From IMG/VR virus record IMGVR_UViG_3300022227_000042, positions 1 to 20,865 of that record: DNA of 20,865 bases; one strand, 5' to 3'. Shown piece by piece: positions 2,110 through 17,007 of this stretch. The position numbers and the translations under genes were made by a program. This stretch comes from a virus. Position 1 is the stretch's first letter. Each line of letters opens with the position of its first letter. The notes beneath the pieces are model-generated. The model ran no database searches, had not been told where the DNA came from, and saw only the letters and a list, made by a program, of their open reading frames with translations.

Positions 2110-2310
2110 ATGACATATCAAAACTCAGCTCAAATGCTTCGTAAGTATTCGGATATAATTAAAGAAATGCAACTAGCACAAGAACAGGCTGTTGTTGAAT
2201 CAGATGAAGACGACGAATCAAAAGAAGAAGTAGACGAAGCAAAAGAAGATAAAAAAGAAGAAGTCGACGAAGCTAAAGAAGAAGACACTGACGACGACGA
2301 CAAGGAATAA
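2110..2310 (+). CDS. Small acidic protein, prohead-core-like
   Basis: A 66-residue protein. Residues 1-27 are helix-forming. The rest is almost entirely Asp, Glu and Lys, containing the repeated unit KEEVDEAKE. This resembles the acidic tail of the small T4 prohead core protein gp67, but homology cannot be claimed from composition. Residues 9-19 read MLRKYSDIIKE. This aligns with the capsid-targeting peptide of T4 internal proteins, which ends at the (I/L)xE site cut by the prohead protease gp21. Nearly the same peptide (QMRKYADIISE) occurs at the C-terminus of the product of the gene at 4877. It has a late promoter upstream and an AAGGA ribosome binding site. A prohead or internal-head role is inference. 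Confidence 0.65.
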   Translation: MTYQNSAQMLRKYSDIIKEMQLAQEQAVVESDEDDESKEEVDEAKEDKKEEVDEAKEEDTDDDDKE

Positions 2311-2313
2311 TAC

Positions 2314-2901
2314 ATGAAATCTTTTAGCCAGTACTTAACCGAAGCAGAAAAAGAATATGCTTTTAGGGTTAAAGTTGCAGGAGACCTGAAAGACGAGCAG
2401 TTAGATAGAATGGAAGAAGCCTTAAAGAAATACGAGGCATTTTCAATATCTAAACCCAAGAAGACAATATTGCAATCTTCTGCTCCAGATTTTGATGACT
2501 TAGGTCCTGCAGAAATAAACATTATAGATTTAAAAACTCGGCAACCTGTTGCTCCACATATCTTATTAAATGATATTGTAGAAGCATTAGATGTACCAGA
2601 ATCTATAGTTAGAGTTAAAAACCCTGCAATGGAAGAAGAAGAACTGGCAGCAGATGAGAAAAAAGAGTTACTTTCAACAGATTCAGAACACCCAAAAGAT
2701 GAACATGGCGAACTAGGTTCTAAATTTTATGGTGACGAATTTAATTCTTTGTTTCTTAAAGAACTTGCTAAAGATAGGGCAACACCCAAAACTGAATTTG
2801 CTAAAAAACCTGAAAAAGTTGAAGTAATGAAAAATGAATCACCAGGTAAAGATAGTCCATTATCTAAACCTCACAATCCAGATCCAAGGGGGAAAAAATA
2901 A
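2314..2901 (+). CDS. Putative internal head/prohead protein with targeting peptide
   Basis: A 195-residue protein with no family I can name. The N-terminus MKSFSQYLTEA lines up position by position with the capsid-targeting sequence of T4 internal protein III (MKTYQEFIAEA). In T4, gp21 cuts after the glutamate; the equivalent here is after E10. Residues 16-95 look like a small alpha/beta domain (YAFRVKVAG ... INIIDLKTRQ). The remainder is acidic and then low-complexity, rich in Lys, Pro and Asp. AAGGA sits upstream of the ATG, and the stop overlaps the next start by 1 nt. I infer a protein packaged into the prohead, either as scaffold core or as an internal protein. Confidence 0.65.
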   Translation: MKSFSQYLTEAEKEYAFRVKVAGDLKDEQLDRMEEALKKYEAFSISKPKKTILQSSAPDFDDLGPAEINIIDLKTRQPVAPHILLNDIVEALDVPESIVRVKNPAMEEEELAADEKKELLSTDSEHPKDEHGELGSKFYGDEFNSLFLKELAKDRATPKTEFAKKPEKVEVMKNESPGKDSPLSKPHNPDPRGKK

Positions 2902-3260
2902 TGAATTTAGCTGATATTTTAAAACTAGCCGGACTAGCACAACAAGACCCAATGAGCTCGTTGAGTTCACCAGGATCTAGTTGTAACCAACACATGAATC
3001 CAGATGATATGCGTACATTAGTTATTAAAATAGAACAACCCCAACTTCAGCCAGAACAAGAAATGGTTGCGACAGAGGAAGCCGAAGGTAGTTATGCAAA
3101 TGCTCCTGAAGAAAAAGAAGTAGGCGATACACACAACGACTTTTCATTTAAAGGTTTTGGAAAACGTAAAAGACACACACGCGATGCCTTAGGTAACTAT
3201 GGTGATAATCCACTAGAAGAATCTAAAATGTTTGAAATGTATAAAAACTTTCAAAGCTAG
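2901..3260 (+). CDS. Hypothetical protein in the packaging cluster
   Basis: A 119-residue protein of unknown function. It begins with a short hydrophobic helix (MNLADILKLAGLAQQ), followed by a Ser/Pro-rich linker, one beta-like segment (RTLVIKIEQPQLQPEQE) and a largely disordered charged half. The part with the most motif character lies at about residues 70-106 (SYANAPEEKEVGD, then GDNPLEE). A GGGGG-type ribosome binding site lies within the end of the upstream gene, so the two are probably co-translated. Its place between a prohead-like protein and the large terminase suggests a head-assembly or virion role. The sequence alone does not prove this. Confidence 0.65.
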   Translation: MNLADILKLAGLAQQDPMSSLSSPGSSCNQHMNPDDMRTLVIKIEQPQLQPEQEMVATEEAEGSYANAPEEKEVGDTHNDFSFKGFGKRKRHTRDALGNYGDNPLEESKMFEMYKNFQS

Positions 3261-3296
3261 CCGCTGCCGGACAATAAACATAAAAATATTTGATAA

Positions 3297-4850
3297 ATGA
3301 GCAATTTTGATACTACTCTCGTAAAACGACCCCACCAACAAGAGAAGTATACTGATGAACAAATCCAAGAACTAGCCAAATGTATTAATGATCCTGTACA
3401 CTTTATGAGTCATCATTGTTATATTCAACATCCTGTAAAAGGTCGTGTAAAATTTGATTTATATGATTTTCAAAAACGACTGGTTAAGATATACAATGAT
3501 AATAGATATGCAATAGCACTTCTTCCACGACAAACAGGCAAATCAACTGCCGCTTCTGCATACCTATTATGGTATGCAATGTTTAAATCAGATAGTACAA
3601 TATTAATTGCCGCACACAAATACGCAGGTGCATTTGAAATAATGACTCGTTTGCGTTTTATATATGAAACTTTGCCCAATTATATAAGAGCAGGTTGTAC
3701 AAGTTATAATCGAGGATCTATGGAATTTGAAAATGGATCACGTATTGTATCCCAAGCAACAACAGAAACAACTGGTCGAGGTATGAGTTTAACGTTAATT
3801 TACTTAGACGAGTTTGCATATGTTCAACCACGTATAGCACAAGAATTTTGGACTTCACTTTCTCCCACACTTGCAACTGGTGGTAAATGTATTATTACTA
3901 GCACACCAAATCAAGATAACGACCAATTTGCACAAATATGGAAGTCTGCTATAGATACTTCGGATGATTATGGTAATGAACAAAAATTTGGTAAGAATGG
4001 ATTTAAATCATTTACTTGTCATTGGAGCGAACATCCTGAAAGAGATGAAAAATGGGCAAACGAAGAACGAGCTAAAATTGGGGAAGATCGATTTAGAAGA
4101 GAACACGAATGTGAATTTATAACCGCCGATGAAACATTAATTGCTCCTTTAAAATTAGTGTTATTAGAAAGTATTCAACCTGTACGTACTGAAGGACAAG
4201 TACGTTGGTATAAGGAGTTAAATAAAAATTCTACATATATAATTGGATTAGATCCGAGTATGGGTACAGGTTCTGATTATTCTGCTATACAAGTTTTTTG
4301 TTTACCAGGATTTCAACAAGTTGCTGAATGGAAACATAATAAAACTGATGTGCGTAATCAAATGCTTATATTACAATCAATACTCAAAACAATATATAAT
4401 GTAACTAAAGATGAAGAAGCTATTTACTATACTATAGAAAATAATGGAATAGGTAGAACATCGATACAAGCATTAGACGAATTAGGAACGTCTAACTTTT
4501 ATGGAAGTTTAATGAATGAACCTAAAACAAAAGGACAAACATTTCATAGAGGTCTTACAACTACTTTAAAAACTAAATTAGAAGGTTGTGCTAAACTAAA
4601 ATATTTTGTAGAAAATGGAAAAATAAAAATTAATAGCAAAAATTTAATTCAAGAATTAAAAACATTTGTTGCTCGAGGCAGGGCATTTGAAGCAAAAGAC
4701 GGTGAACATGATGATTTAGTAATGGCGGCTCTATTATGTGTACGAATTGTTCATCAATTAACAAAACATGACGAAGACACTTTCAACGAATTAATGGATC
4801 CGATGGATACAGACCCTGTTGATTTACCTATGCCAATTGGCGTTATTTAA
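3297..4850 (+). CDS. 17: Terminase large subunit gp17 (packaging motor)
   Basis: ATPase and nuclease that cuts concatemeric DNA and pumps it into the prohead. The 517 residues are shorter than T4 gp17 (610), mainly by loss of N-terminal sequence. ATPase domain: Walker A RQTGKST at 78-84, Walker B LIYLDEF with D171-E172, and coupling motif TSTP at 201-204. Nuclease domain (RNase H fold): D319 in IIGLDPSMGTGSDY, E381 in YTIENNGIG, and D472-D473 in EHDDLVMA, corresponding to the T4 catalytic Asp/Glu/Asp. All key residues are present. No Shine-Dalgarno sequence precedes the ATG. A degenerate late-like TAAAAATA at 3281-3288 would start transcription only a few bases upstream. Confidence 0.97.
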   Translation: MSNFDTTLVKRPHQQEKYTDEQIQELAKCINDPVHFMSHHCYIQHPVKGRVKFDLYDFQKRLVKIYNDNRYAIALLPRQTGKSTAASAYLLWYAMFKSDSTILIAAHKYAGAFEIMTRLRFIYETLPNYIRAGCTSYNRGSMEFENGSRIVSQATTETTGRGMSLTLIYLDEFAYVQPRIAQEFWTSLSPTLATGGKCIITSTPNQDNDQFAQIWKSAIDTSDDYGNEQKFGKNGFKSFTCHWSEHPERDEKWANEERAKIGEDRFRREHECEFITADETLIAPLKLVLLESIQPVRTEGQVRWYKELNKNSTYIIGLDPSMGTGSDYSAIQVFCLPGFQQVAEWKHNKTDVRNQMLILQSILKTIYNVTKDEEAIYYTIENNGIGRTSIQALDELGTSNFYGSLMNEPKTKGQTFHRGLTTTLKTKLEGCAKLKYFVENGKIKINSKNLIQELKTFVARGRAFEAKDGEHDDLVMAALLCVRIVHQLTKHDEDTFNELMDPMDTDPVDLPMPIGVI

Positions 4851-4873
4851 TAAATATATAAAACAGGTGTAGC
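4849..4873 (+). promoter_or_regulatory. Late promoter AATAAATA plus leader CAGGTGTAGC
   Basis: AATAAATA at 4849-4856 overlaps the gp17 stop codon. The predicted start near 4862 gives a 15-nt leader. The leader contains CAGGTGTAGC at 4864-4873, and its AGGTG probably acts as the ribosome binding site. The same 10-mer follows the late box at 16169-16176. Confidence 0.6.
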
Positions 4874-4876
4874 CAT

Positions 4877-7057
4877 ATGGTAGATTATGATTCGGTTGCG
4901 ACTAATATTTTTAAAACAATGTTGGCGCACAATTTAAACAGATTACAATTATTTGACAGTGAAGGGAAACGAACTGTCGAACCAGAACAGGCTAGACGAT
5001 TTTGGTCAGATGATTTAAAATTAATGGTGCATCTAGATGATAAACCATCGCCTGGAGAAATTAAAGTAAATGTAAGTGCAAACAACGAAAGCAGTCAAAT
5101 AGGTCTTAAAAAATTATTTGATTCAATTAGAGGTATTTCTAAGAAAAGTTTATTGCAATATACATTAAAAACATTCGGAAAAGAATTAAGTCCAAAAGAC
5201 TTTGCTTATCAAACAGTAGGAAGTGATAACATGGAAAATATTAAAGAATCAAGTTTGAGCAGAGCGTACGGTAGTACCAAATCTAGTTTTCAAAACTTAG
5301 ATTCTGCAAAACTTATTATTCGACATACAAAACCCATAGATGAAGGATCTAGGGGATCAAGAGCACGGAATATTTCTGCACTATTTGTAGAAAATTCTGA
5401 AGGGGAACGATTTAGATACCCATACAATCATCTAGCAGGTGCTAGAGCAATGACGCGGCATGTTGCGGAAGGCGGAACACCATACGATAATGTCGGTAGT
5501 TATGTTACTAAATTATCAGAAGAAACGTTTGAATTAAGTAAATTTAACCGTTATGCTAGAAGTAATAATTTAGTAAACGAAGATACTGGGCCTATTATAG
5601 AAAATGTACGTAATAGAATTCGTTCTCTCAAAGAAACCCTTAAACGAATGTCTTCGCATAGAGGTTACGCCACACAAGTACAAACACTAGGCGAAACTAA
5701 AACAGAATTAGACGAAGAACTAGTAAATAATCTTAAAGATAAATTCACAGTTGTTCACTTTGATGAATCCATTGAATCAGTACTTCCTTATGTTGCAAAT
5801 ATAGTTTCCGAAATGACAAGCAAAGCACGAATCAAAGAAGACTTTGATTCTTTTATGAATGCAGTAAATGAAGCAGAAGAAATTCAGGTAAGTTTAGTTG
5901 AAGATGATGATCCAGAACATCCATCTAATTTAACTTTTGAAAATGTTACTAAAAAGAATCAACATATTATACGATACATGTCGGAACATATTTTAGATAA
6001 AAATATTTCAAGTCTTGCAAACCAAGTAGCATCGGATTATTCACAATACGACACGTCAATGAAAAACCAAGCATTACGTGCAGTTAAAGGTATAATGAGC
6101 GAAAAAATTCAACCAGAACCAGTAGAAGATTCTGTTGGATTGCCAGATCTTCTTGTTAATAGTATAGATGATTCATTATCAAAATATGCTACAGATGATG
6201 TCTTTTTTGAAAAAGATACATCATCGGAGGACGAAGAGCAAGTAGAAGAAGGCAAATTGCCTCCAGGGTTACAGGCACATATTGATGCTAAAAAAGATAA
6301 AGAAGATGACGAAGAATTATCTGAAGATAATTTAAAAGATGTATCGGATTTACCTAAAGAAAAAGAAGAAGCTGATGTAACAAAAACCAGTCCTGTTGCA
6401 ACATGTAAATTAAAAGAAAACGAAATTAAAAGAAAACGATATGATACAACGAATGCAATATCTAGCAGGGGTAAACGCATGAAAATTACAGAATTAGACG
6501 AATCTTTTTGGCCAGGAGACCACAAAAAGAATCAAGAAGGAACAGGAAAAGGAAAATATCGCGATCGCAAGTCAGCCAATATTAATAAAAAAATCAGTCA
6601 AAAAACAGTGCCGTCAGCAAACGATTTCACAAGATCGCTGCCAGAAAATACTAATGCAACTTTAGATGATATTGTAGAAAGATATCCAACCGAACTTGAA
6701 TCAATAATAATAGGGAATTCTTTCTTAACGGATCATGATAAGTTTTATAATGAGTTATATGAATATTTTGTTACTGGTGCAGGTAGAGGCGAAATGCCAT
6801 ATGATGTTGCTAAAGCTCGAGACGGAGATCCAGACCAGTGGATTACTGAATATTTGGAACAGGAATATGGTCACGAATTTAGTCATAGTGATCCTGAATC
6901 AATGGATGGAGATTTTGACTCTGGTATGGCTTCAGCAGGACATGGTACAGACGAAGATTATGGCTATTATGGCGAAACTGCTGGAAATCAAATGCGTAAA
7001 TATGCAGACATAATTTCTGAATCTAATAAAATAATAAAAAGAAAAAAACGTAGTTAA
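4877..7057 (+). CDS. Large virion/head-associated protein, unknown function
   Basis: A 726-residue protein whose general type occurs in marine T4-like phages, but I cannot assign a T4 counterpart. Residues 1-350 look globular, with charged helices (IENVRNRIRSLKETLKRMSS). Residues about 410-515 are acidic and low-complexity, including EEGKLPPGLQAHIDAKKDK. A basic segment (about 515-585) is followed by an acidic, Gly/Tyr-rich end. The last 22 residues contain QMRKYADIISE, almost the same as residues 8-19 of the 66-residue protein at 2110. This resembles a prohead-protease capsid-targeting peptide, here at the C-terminus. A late promoter with a short AGGTG leader precedes the gene. Packaging into the head is inferred. 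Confidence 0.8.
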   Translation: MVDYDSVATNIFKTMLAHNLNRLQLFDSEGKRTVEPEQARRFWSDDLKLMVHLDDKPSPGEIKVNVSANNESSQIGLKKLFDSIRGISKKSLLQYTLKTFGKELSPKDFAYQTVGSDNMENIKESSLSRAYGSTKSSFQNLDSAKLIIRHTKPIDEGSRGSRARNISALFVENSEGERFRYPYNHLAGARAMTRHVAEGGTPYDNVGSYVTKLSEETFELSKFNRYARSNNLVNEDTGPIIENVRNRIRSLKETLKRMSSHRGYATQVQTLGETKTELDEELVNNLKDKFTVVHFDESIESVLPYVANIVSEMTSKARIKEDFDSFMNAVNEAEEIQVSLVEDDDPEHPSNLTFENVTKKNQHIIRYMSEHILDKNISSLANQVASDYSQYDTSMKNQALRAVKGIMSEKIQPEPVEDSVGLPDLLVNSIDDSLSKYATDDVFFEKDTSSEDEEQVEEGKLPPGLQAHIDAKKDKEDDEELSEDNLKDVSDLPKEKEEADVTKTSPVATCKLKENEIKRKRYDTTNAISSRGKRMKITELDESFWPGDHKKNQEGTGKGKYRDRKSANINKKISQKTVPSANDFTRSLPENTNATLDDIVERYPTELESIIIGNSFLTDHDKFYNELYEYFVTGAGRGEMPYDVAKARDGDPDQWITEYLEQEYGHEFSHSDPESMDGDFDSGMASAGHGTDEDYGYYGETAGNQMRKYADIISESNKIIKRKKRS

Positions 7058-16194: not shown

Positions 16195-17007
16195 ATGGCA
16201 CAATCATTGACATTATATGATTACATCCATACTCAACATTTACTGTTGATTAGCGGACCCTCAAAAACGAGAAATGCGCCAATGAACAACAGAATATTAA
16301 AAGTTTACAAGGGTGTGGACAATACAATTAACTTTGATGTTAAAAACGAGGACCGAAAACCCGTTAAATTAACTAGTCAAATTATACAAGCTAATTTAGT
16401 TAATCATCAAAACAAACAACTTATATTTTCTAGAACTTGTAAAGTAGAAGATGATCATGCAGGTAAAGTTCAACTTACTATTTTAGATTCTGATGTAGCC
16501 GGCATCGATGAAGGATTATACGATATAGCATTCACTTATACTAACAACGAAGGGTCTACCAAACCATTATTCACAGATCATAATGACAAACAAACAGCAA
16601 CAATCCAAATATTAGATGGTTCGTTGCCTAAACTGTCATCTACAGTTATTGTCAATTCGTTTGCTATTGATCCACAAAATAATGGCAAAACTAATGAAGA
16701 TCAAATGTATAGTAGCGGTTATGCTGGGGATGCACAGAGTAACGATAGTAATGGATTGCATACCTTTGCGGCATATACTACAGCATTTACTGGTAAATTA
16801 TATGTCGACGGAACATTAGATGCGTATGCTGATTCAAGTGCAGGATGGTTTCCAATACGAATAGGTTCTGTTACTGACTATGTTACATTTTCTGCTCATA
16901 CCGGAATAACTCCGTTTAACTTTTCTTCTAACATAATGTGGGTACGATTTTCATTTCTTGCTGATTCTGGAACATCTGGGGTTGACAAAATTCTCTATAG
17001 AACGTAA
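16195..17007 (+). CDS. Putative baseplate/tail fibre protein, BppU-like N-terminus
   Basis: A 270-residue protein. Residues about 36-145 look like an immunoglobulin-like beta domain of the BppU type found at the N-terminus of phage baseplate upper proteins: INFDVKNEDRKPVKLTSQII, then IFSRTCKVEDDHAGKVQLTI, then GIDEGLYDIAFTY. The C-terminal part (150-270) is rich in Ser, Thr, Gly and aromatic residues, as in fibre or receptor-facing domains, and ends in a beta-like segment (IMWVRFSFLADSG). A late promoter with the CAGGTGTAGC leader precedes it. It is a late structural gene set between replication genes. Tail or fibre function is inferred from domain type and late control. The downstream primase promoter lies in its last codons. 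Confidence 0.65.
   Translation: MAQSLTLYDYIHTQHLLLISGPSKTRNAPMNNRILKVYKGVDNTINFDVKNEDRKPVKLTSQIIQANLVNHQNKQLIFSRTCKVEDDHAGKVQLTILDSDVAGIDEGLYDIAFTYTNNEGSTKPLFTDHNDKQTATIQILDGSLPKLSSTVIVNSFAIDPQNNGKTNEDQMYSSGYAGDAQSNDSNGLHTFAAYTTAFTGKLYVDGTLDAYADSSAGWFPIRIGSVTDYVTFSAHTGITPFNFSSNIMWVRFSFLADSGTSGVDKILYRT

Follow-up and report, generated by a model that had tools for sequence, protein, structure and literature searches.

Peptides resembling the T4 capsid-targeting sequence at protein ends in a jumbo phage fragment and its relatives

Results

Three similar peptides near protein ends

The virus record IMGVR_UViG_3300022227_000042 (hereafter the window, the whole 20,865-base stretch that was analysed) is a fragment of a T4-superfamily jumbo phage, kin to PA5oct, RaK2, CBB, Phosso and Atu_ph07. 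Three peptides encoded in it resemble the capsid-targeting sequence (CTS) of the T4 internal proteins; they and the other features given with coordinates in the first 7057 bases lie on the plus strand. MKSFSQYLTEA (2314-2346) forms residues 1-11 of the 2314 protein (2314-2901), MLRKYSDIIKE (2134-2166) residues 9-19 of the 2110 protein (2110-2310), and QMRKYADIISE (6989-7021) residues 705-715 of a 726-aa open reading frame (ORF, 4877-7057), where it is followed by the basic tail SNKIIKRKKRS. All three were found where a preliminary description of this DNA had placed them, and each has I8 or L8 together with E10 in the T4 register, the (I/L)xE ending that it had attributed to them. The whole of the evidence below is best explained if the peptides work as address tags in the manner of the T4 CTS, and we give this reading a probability of about three in four.

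The pattern [KR]x[YF]xx[YFI][IL]xE has exactly three matches in the 26 window genes. These are the three peptides, every one of them close to a protein end, and the pattern has zero matches in the replication genes of the window, where the preliminary description had considered that it might be just as common. In 5000 shuffles of the window proteins, full-pattern matches averaged 0.12, and three or more appeared in 0.04% of shuffles (P 0.0004). Matches within 15 residues of an end averaged 0.015, with two or more in 0/5000 shuffles. The (I/L)xE triplet was rejected as evidence by itself, replication genes being equally rich in it (17.7 per 1000 aa, versus 15.6 in head-side genes). When a position-specific scoring matrix (PSSM) was run over 12 genomes or genome parts, the 2110 tag scored 28.7 bits and all controls stayed at or below 16.6 bits; matches above 17 bits fall no more than 35 residues from a protein end, many of these having been in the training set.

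The 2314 protein

The 2314 gene encodes a member of a 195-aa virion protein family (phrog_14802, 2.3e-16) that consists of the tag, a small alpha/beta domain and a disordered tail. Its AlphaFold model (mean pLDDT 52) shows a helix spanning residues 4-13 together with an alpha/beta pattern, and is too weak for a fold search. T4 IPII and IPIII begin MKTYQEFIAEA and IPI begins MKTFKEFTSTT (NC_000866). The first ten residues of IPIII are enough for packaging, positions 4 and 7 counting for targeting and positions 8 and 10 for processing, and Asp at position 10 blocks processing but not targeting (PMC9026906). The 2314 tag occupies residues 1-10 exactly and agrees with IPIII at all four key positions (F4, Y7, L8, E10), which bears out the claimed likeness to the T4 tag. 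The other two peptides, which we call the RKY type (RKYxDII), sit in the same 10-residue register, x-R-K-Y-x-D-I-I-x-E, with Y4 and I7.

Homologs of the 2314 protein have F or L at position 4 and Y or I at position 7. E10 is kept in the window, L013, Atu_ph07, GAP32/CBB, 121Q and Vibrio 2.275.O. Since positions 4 and 7 are kept across the homologs and position 10 is not, docking appears to be the older of the two steps and less variable than trimming.

The 2110 protein

The second tag is carried by a 66-aa acidic protein that is rich in D and E from residue 32. This tag starts 9 residues in from the N-terminus, unlike the exactly N-terminal T4 placement. Syntenic orthologs in L013, G007 and G008 contain two tag copies with acidic repeats between them, and the tag is retained at the start of the orthologs though the remainder has diverged. 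Like T4 gp67, a small acidic prohead core protein, the 2110 protein is small and has a strongly acidic C-terminal half. However, gp67 maps between portal gp20 and gp68/gp21 and 2110 between gp4 and 2314, and the identification of 2110 as a gp67 ortholog was rejected on position; in G008 the gp67 position is occupied by a separate 86-aa gene. A VEEG(K/T)LPPGLQAHIDAK segment is common to the L013 ortholog of 2110 (L013:9539-9997) and the window 4877 protein (4877-7057), and the two seem, from this shared segment, to swap short linear modules.

Two fused genes at 4877-7057

The 726-aa ORF is made of two genes. Its upstream part (4877-6478) belongs to virion protein family phrog_13484 (5.7e-34), and its second part (6479-7057), which starts with an ATG at 6479 (MKITELD...), bears the C-terminal tag. 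The two are separate in L010 and G005, in which the first gene ends in frame with RMQYLAGMSA and a stop that shares bases with the start codon (ATG) of the second. The window has a perfect 16-bp tandem duplication (6407-6438; AAATTAAAAGAAAACG x2) that shifts the frame and fuses the genes, leaving the old end of the upstream gene as an out-of-frame remnant, RMQYLAGVNA-stop (6450-6482). The 16-bp unit is present once in L010 and G005 and duplicated in L011, while L002 is fused through a different indel. L011 is identical to the window over the 4877-7057 ORF and possibly stems from the same population; the duplication may therefore still be an assembly artefact.

The placements given earlier (N-terminal, near-N-terminal and C-terminal) are as described, but the C-terminal copy ends this second gene and not the 4877 virion protein. 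A two-gene fusion therefore replaces the earlier picture of a C-terminal tag on the 4877 protein, for which mass spectrometry (MS) support exists. Judging by the separated genes, the carrier of the third tag is a protein of about 192-320 aa. The RKYxDII tag persists at the C-terminus though the window lacks an adjoining 81-aa domain that is present in L010 and G005. In L026:399-1259, residues 189-268 form an HSCATHVEH... domain next to the C-terminal tag, common to cyanophage cytidyltransferase proteins and absent from the window copy.

Tagged proteins in virions

The three genes had been described as virion genes. This stands for homologs of the 2314 protein and of the N-terminal part of the 4877 protein, which occur in virions by MS, and is too strong for 2110 and 6479-7057. 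The 2314 homolog CBB_210 was represented by 13 peptides (60.5% coverage) in virion MS, and CBB_276, a homolog of the 4877 N-terminal part, by 8 peptides (21.7% coverage) (PMC5259590). The corresponding PA5oct proteins, gp282 (2314) and gp278 (4877 N-terminal part), carry 'ESI-MS/MS' notes. In the cyanophage S-SCSM1, an NMNAT is among the proteins detected in CsCl-purified virions (PMC9602691). This NMNAT begins MKSFLQFLKEA, and a 69-aa MS-labelled virion protein of the same phage ends in KKRTFKEFLEYIE.

Tags on other phage proteins

Collections of viral contigs were scanned for DNA encoding the motifs, with patterns that include no start codon. R-x-Y-I-[DN]-I-I-N-E was found in 25 cargo clusters, unrelated outside the tag, and lies close to a start codon in 24 of them; the one non-N-terminal cluster is an exonuclease-like family with the motif at residue 66. 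K-S-F-x-x-F-L-x-E-A was found in at least 112 reading frames (98 of 112 near a start) and at least about 23 cargo clusters. Its free position 6 is Q, E or D in about 19 of 26 clusters among the matches listed; T4 has E6. The biggest cluster of this motif among the matches listed is a cytidylyltransferase/NMNAT family (phrog_395, 2.5e-99).

Other tagged cargos include a 2'-5' RNA ligase/Acb1-like protein (L294:847-1464, minus strand; PF13563 3.6e-12, PF23474 3.8e-6), a 2H phosphoesterase that is possibly a head-packaged anti-CBASS protein. A protein with sigma-70 region 4 (2.2e-11) and an N-terminal RTYIDIINE (L152:889-1398, minus strand; relatives in L159, L177, L179 and L191) may be a packaged sigma-like factor. 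Tags are also present on a glucosaminidase (1.9e-16), a CHAP protein (1.7e-10), a polynucleotide-kinase-like protein (8.9e-8), a DUF6267 protein (5.8e-102) and an M78-like metallopeptidase (2.9e-4, just below cut-off). Two further tagged proteins (L334:4776-5486, LYRGE...SWTASP; L030:5873-6547, LYHFTP...; both plus strand) look by eye like ADP-ribosyltransferases, as in T4 Alt, and Pfam gave this likeness no support. A tagged protein in G004 (L198:1768-2388) has repeated YGAEEDFEALAG units after its tag.

C-terminal copies also recur, as in the S-SCSM1 69-aa protein. Among 50 distinct relatives, 11 have a C-terminal tag no more than 14 residues from the end (0.2% in shuffled sequences). The preliminary description took a C-terminal targeting peptide to be a departure from T4. 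It is less of a departure than that: T4 Alt is trimmed C-terminally (PMC5694885), and the S-SCSM1 virion protein offers a C-terminal copy in another phage. Because of these copies and the C-terminal processing of Alt, it is likely that the tag is end-independent and not unique to the window phage. Two other searches led no further. The isolated C-terminal peptide and the short N-terminal tag were too short as tblastn queries in named phages to be informative, and a dockerin-like segment behind one tag pointed to cyanophages, whose matches carry no RKY tag.

Head machinery in tagged genomes

Among contigs longer than 100 kb with the RxYI[DN]IINE tag, 7/8 have a Peptidase_S77 match and 8/8 have Gp23 matches. 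Shorter tagged contigs have neither match, as fragments may. A gp21-type prohead protease was found in G008, PA5oct, Phosso, Atu_ph07 and GAP32. A tagged gene adjoins the prohead protease gene in Phosso (LRKFMNILNE; MSGPDLRKFMNILNESF), and one lies directly downstream of it in Atu_ph07 (L130:2822-3412; tag MSIRKFLNIINE, protein start MSIRKFLNIINESY).

In seven relatives, L-x-E stands directly before the conserved mature start of the major capsid protein (LME, LVE, LME, LSE, LKE, LAE, LAE), matching the place of LTE in T4. With L-x-E at this maturation site in all seven, the protease of the lineage probably keeps the T4 preference, and trimming at the three window tags is plausible.

A second tag shared with the scaffold

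In 9/10 genomes the gp22-type scaffold ends with a hydrophobic residue, two residues, LAG(I/L) and at most two further residues. Examples are NLRKLAGI (G008), ELRRLAGIK (PA5oct), ELRRLAGIEK (Phosso), DLKRLAGIKK (Atu_ph07) and VIRLAGIK (G003), with IKRLAGL, LKRLAGL or IRRLAGL in G012-G015. The exception is GAP32, with the variant IAKLSGMDKKR (LSGM). LAG(I/L) also closes the Phosso homolog of 4877, a 598-aa protein next to terminase in G007 and large proteins of G001 and G003; in L010 and G005, where the pair is split, the upstream gene has its LAG ending in frame. Within eight residues of the C-terminus, 15 LAG tags were observed versus 1.0 expected. A LAG-type tag also occurs at the N-terminus of the window 2901 protein (ILKLAGL, 2916-2936; MNLADILKLAGL). 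The same N-terminal tag is present in PA5oct gp281, which has an 'ESI-MS/MS' note (MFNINDILRLAGV), and in G007 and G008.

Scaffold C-termini bind the shell in other phages. By analogy, the LAG tag may act through shell-binding of this kind, and the sharing of LAG(I/L) by gp22 and other large proteins probably serves co-assembly with the scaffold.

Discussion

How the tags may work

There are two steps in which tags of the T4 kind could act. As the prohead assembles, a short helix at either terminus of a protein, (K/R)-x-(Y/F)-x-(E/D/Q)-(F/Y/I)-(I/L), would dock its carrier on the growing scaffold core, and the docked carrier would become enclosed in the head. Where the tag ends in (I/L)-x-E, a gp21-type protease would cut there and free the cargo; for carriers without the Glu, docking alone would remain. 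In the window phage, 2314 would be the clearest internal head protein, 2110 an acidic core protein, and 6479-7057 a protein tagged near its C-terminus.

The prediction that three proteins are packed into the prohead fares differently from one to the next. Targeting is well supported for 2314, with its exact N-terminal tag and MS-detected homologs. For the RKYxDII tags it is reasonably supported, because they share the 10-residue register and occur on two dozen unrelated proteins, in phages with gp21 and gp23.

Several observations weigh against the proposal. Glu10 is absent in four 2314 homologs, those of Phosso (S), PA5oct (A), XaC1 (A) and RaK2 (D), and PA5oct has no RKY-type tag that scores above the PSSM control level. 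Of the credible terminal tags in S-SCSM1, 2/3 are on MS-detected proteins, an enrichment in the right direction and not significant (Fisher P 0.13). The tagged contig G001, the 415-kb contig of L023, has RKY-type tags and partial Gp23 matches and gave no Peptidase_S77 match; its prohead protease may have diverged or be missing from the contig. Genes for a portal, protease, scaffold and capsid protein are all missing from the 20.9-kb window, and the head machinery of this phage has to be deduced from its relatives. Docking, cleavage and ejection are steps that we infer.

Alternative explanations

The loss of Glu10 would be expected if the peptides hold their carriers in the head uncut, with (I/L)xE partly incidental. 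Positions 4 and 7 are still hydrophobic in the four homologs that lack Glu10, Asp10 in T4 stops processing and not targeting (PMC9026906), and the C-terminal tags of the SKAQQRF family mostly have no Glu. Docking without trimming would fit the C-terminal copies best. As an account of the tags in general we think it rather unlikely, since E10 is retained in all window copies and all close relatives of 2314, and the capsid maturation site keeps L-x-E. The opposite view is that the peptides are only cleavage sites for the prohead protease, and that their carriers reach the head interior in some other way, for instance through folded domains that bind the scaffold. Every window peptide does end in (I/L)xE, the specificity of gp21 (PMC9026906), but replication genes contain that triplet just as often. 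Conservation falls on the residues upstream of the triplet, which hold the same register and terminal position in dozens of unrelated proteins and survive where the Glu is lost; all this makes a role as cleavage sites alone improbable.

The tags might also dock somewhere other than the head interior; conceivable partners are the portal or neck, DNA, tail components and host proteins. Genes for the neck and the tail tube do lie nearby in the window, and the basic tail after the C-terminal copy could bind DNA. On the other side, the register is identical to that of the experimentally defined T4 capsid tag, the tagged cyanophage NMNAT found in virions is not a tail protein, and in Phosso and Atu_ph07 the tagged genes are neighbours of the one for the prohead protease. 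We regard such a destination as a long shot. That the motif arose by chance, or reflects generic amphipathic helices at the ends of proteins, is hardly credible: it is short and partly degenerate, but the data contradict a chance origin, which was rejected on the shuffles (P 0.0004 in the window) and PSSM controls, and the positional enrichment extends over unrelated cargos.

Comparison with known head-loading systems

The proposed address tags of this lineage share with the CTS of IPI, IPII and IPIII the register x-(K/R)-x-(Y/F)-x-(E/D/Q)-(F/Y/I)-(I/L)-x-E and its (I/L)xE ending, and they are N-terminal in 2314 and dozens of unrelated cargos. Unlike the T4 CTS, one window copy lies 9 residues in and one near the C-terminus, and the L013 ortholog of 2110 has two copies. 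The RKY type also has Ile for the aromatic residue at position 7, and the Glu is not always retained. The copy at 6989-7021 is C-terminal and the T4 CTS is by definition N-terminal, so we class this copy only as one that would work like a T4 CTS.

T4 Alt, a head protein that is ejected, already offers a case of a propeptide at the C-terminus. In Alt, gp21 trims both ends and 63 C-terminal residues are lost at LTE-619 (PMC5694885), compared with the about 11 basic residues that would be lost from the window 6479-7057 protein. P1 DarB has an N-terminal peptide that suffices to load the protein into the phage head (PMC9024508), but P1 appears to have no separate scaffold, and the likeness drawn here is one of N-terminal loading. 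Giant phages of the phiKZ/SPN3US type also have Glu-cut propeptides on head-interior proteins (PMC5694885); theirs are mostly longer than 100 residues and cut at (A/S)xE, whereas the tags here are short and T4-like. We found no description of RKYxDII or LAG(I/L) tags in the open-access papers that were searched, the subscription literature lying outside this search.

It is tempting to speculate, at somewhat less than even odds, that open-water T4-superfamily phages have a general way of addressing proteins to the head interior, independent of the protein end and written in two codes. One would be a CTS-like core-docking tag, usable at both N- and C-termini; the other, LAG(I/L), would mimic the C-terminus of the scaffold. 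The tags alone would then list the proteins that are packaged and, probably, injected. Such a list would hold candidates for counter-defence or early take-over such as the NMNAT, the Acb1-like 2H phosphoesterase, the sigma-70 region-4 protein, the metallopeptidase and the polynucleotide-kinase-like protein. Packaged and ejected phage proteins are the first to act in infection, and they are hard to find because they have no common domain and evolve fast. A tag that can be read in raw sequence is a search handle for proteins carried in heads and perhaps injected into bacteria, and the scans already indicate enzymes with plausible early roles (Acb1-like, possibly anti-CBASS; NMNAT, NAD metabolism). 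The presence of the LAG tag on gp22 and cargo alike suggests a co-assembly route that can be tested, and C-terminal tags would broaden the known rules of head loading.

Neighbouring genes

The gene order in the window is tail tube, an unassigned protein, gp4 head closure (1121-1567; phrog_218, 1.3e-41), an unknown gene, 2110, 2314, 2901, the gp17 large terminase subunit (3297-4850; phrog_36964, 8.4e-121) and 4877. Downstream of 4877 are genes for a single-stranded DNA-binding protein and a UvsX-like recombinase, followed mainly by replication and helicase genes. The core of this order is found again in PA5oct, Phosso and Atu_ph07. A virion structural protein (16195-17007; phrog_14467, 1.3e-19) lies amid the replication genes of the window. 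L013 and G008 have a 290-aa ORF between gp4 and the 1564 homolog (L013:8128-9000) that is not in the window and, judged by eye, may be SGNH-hydrolase-like.

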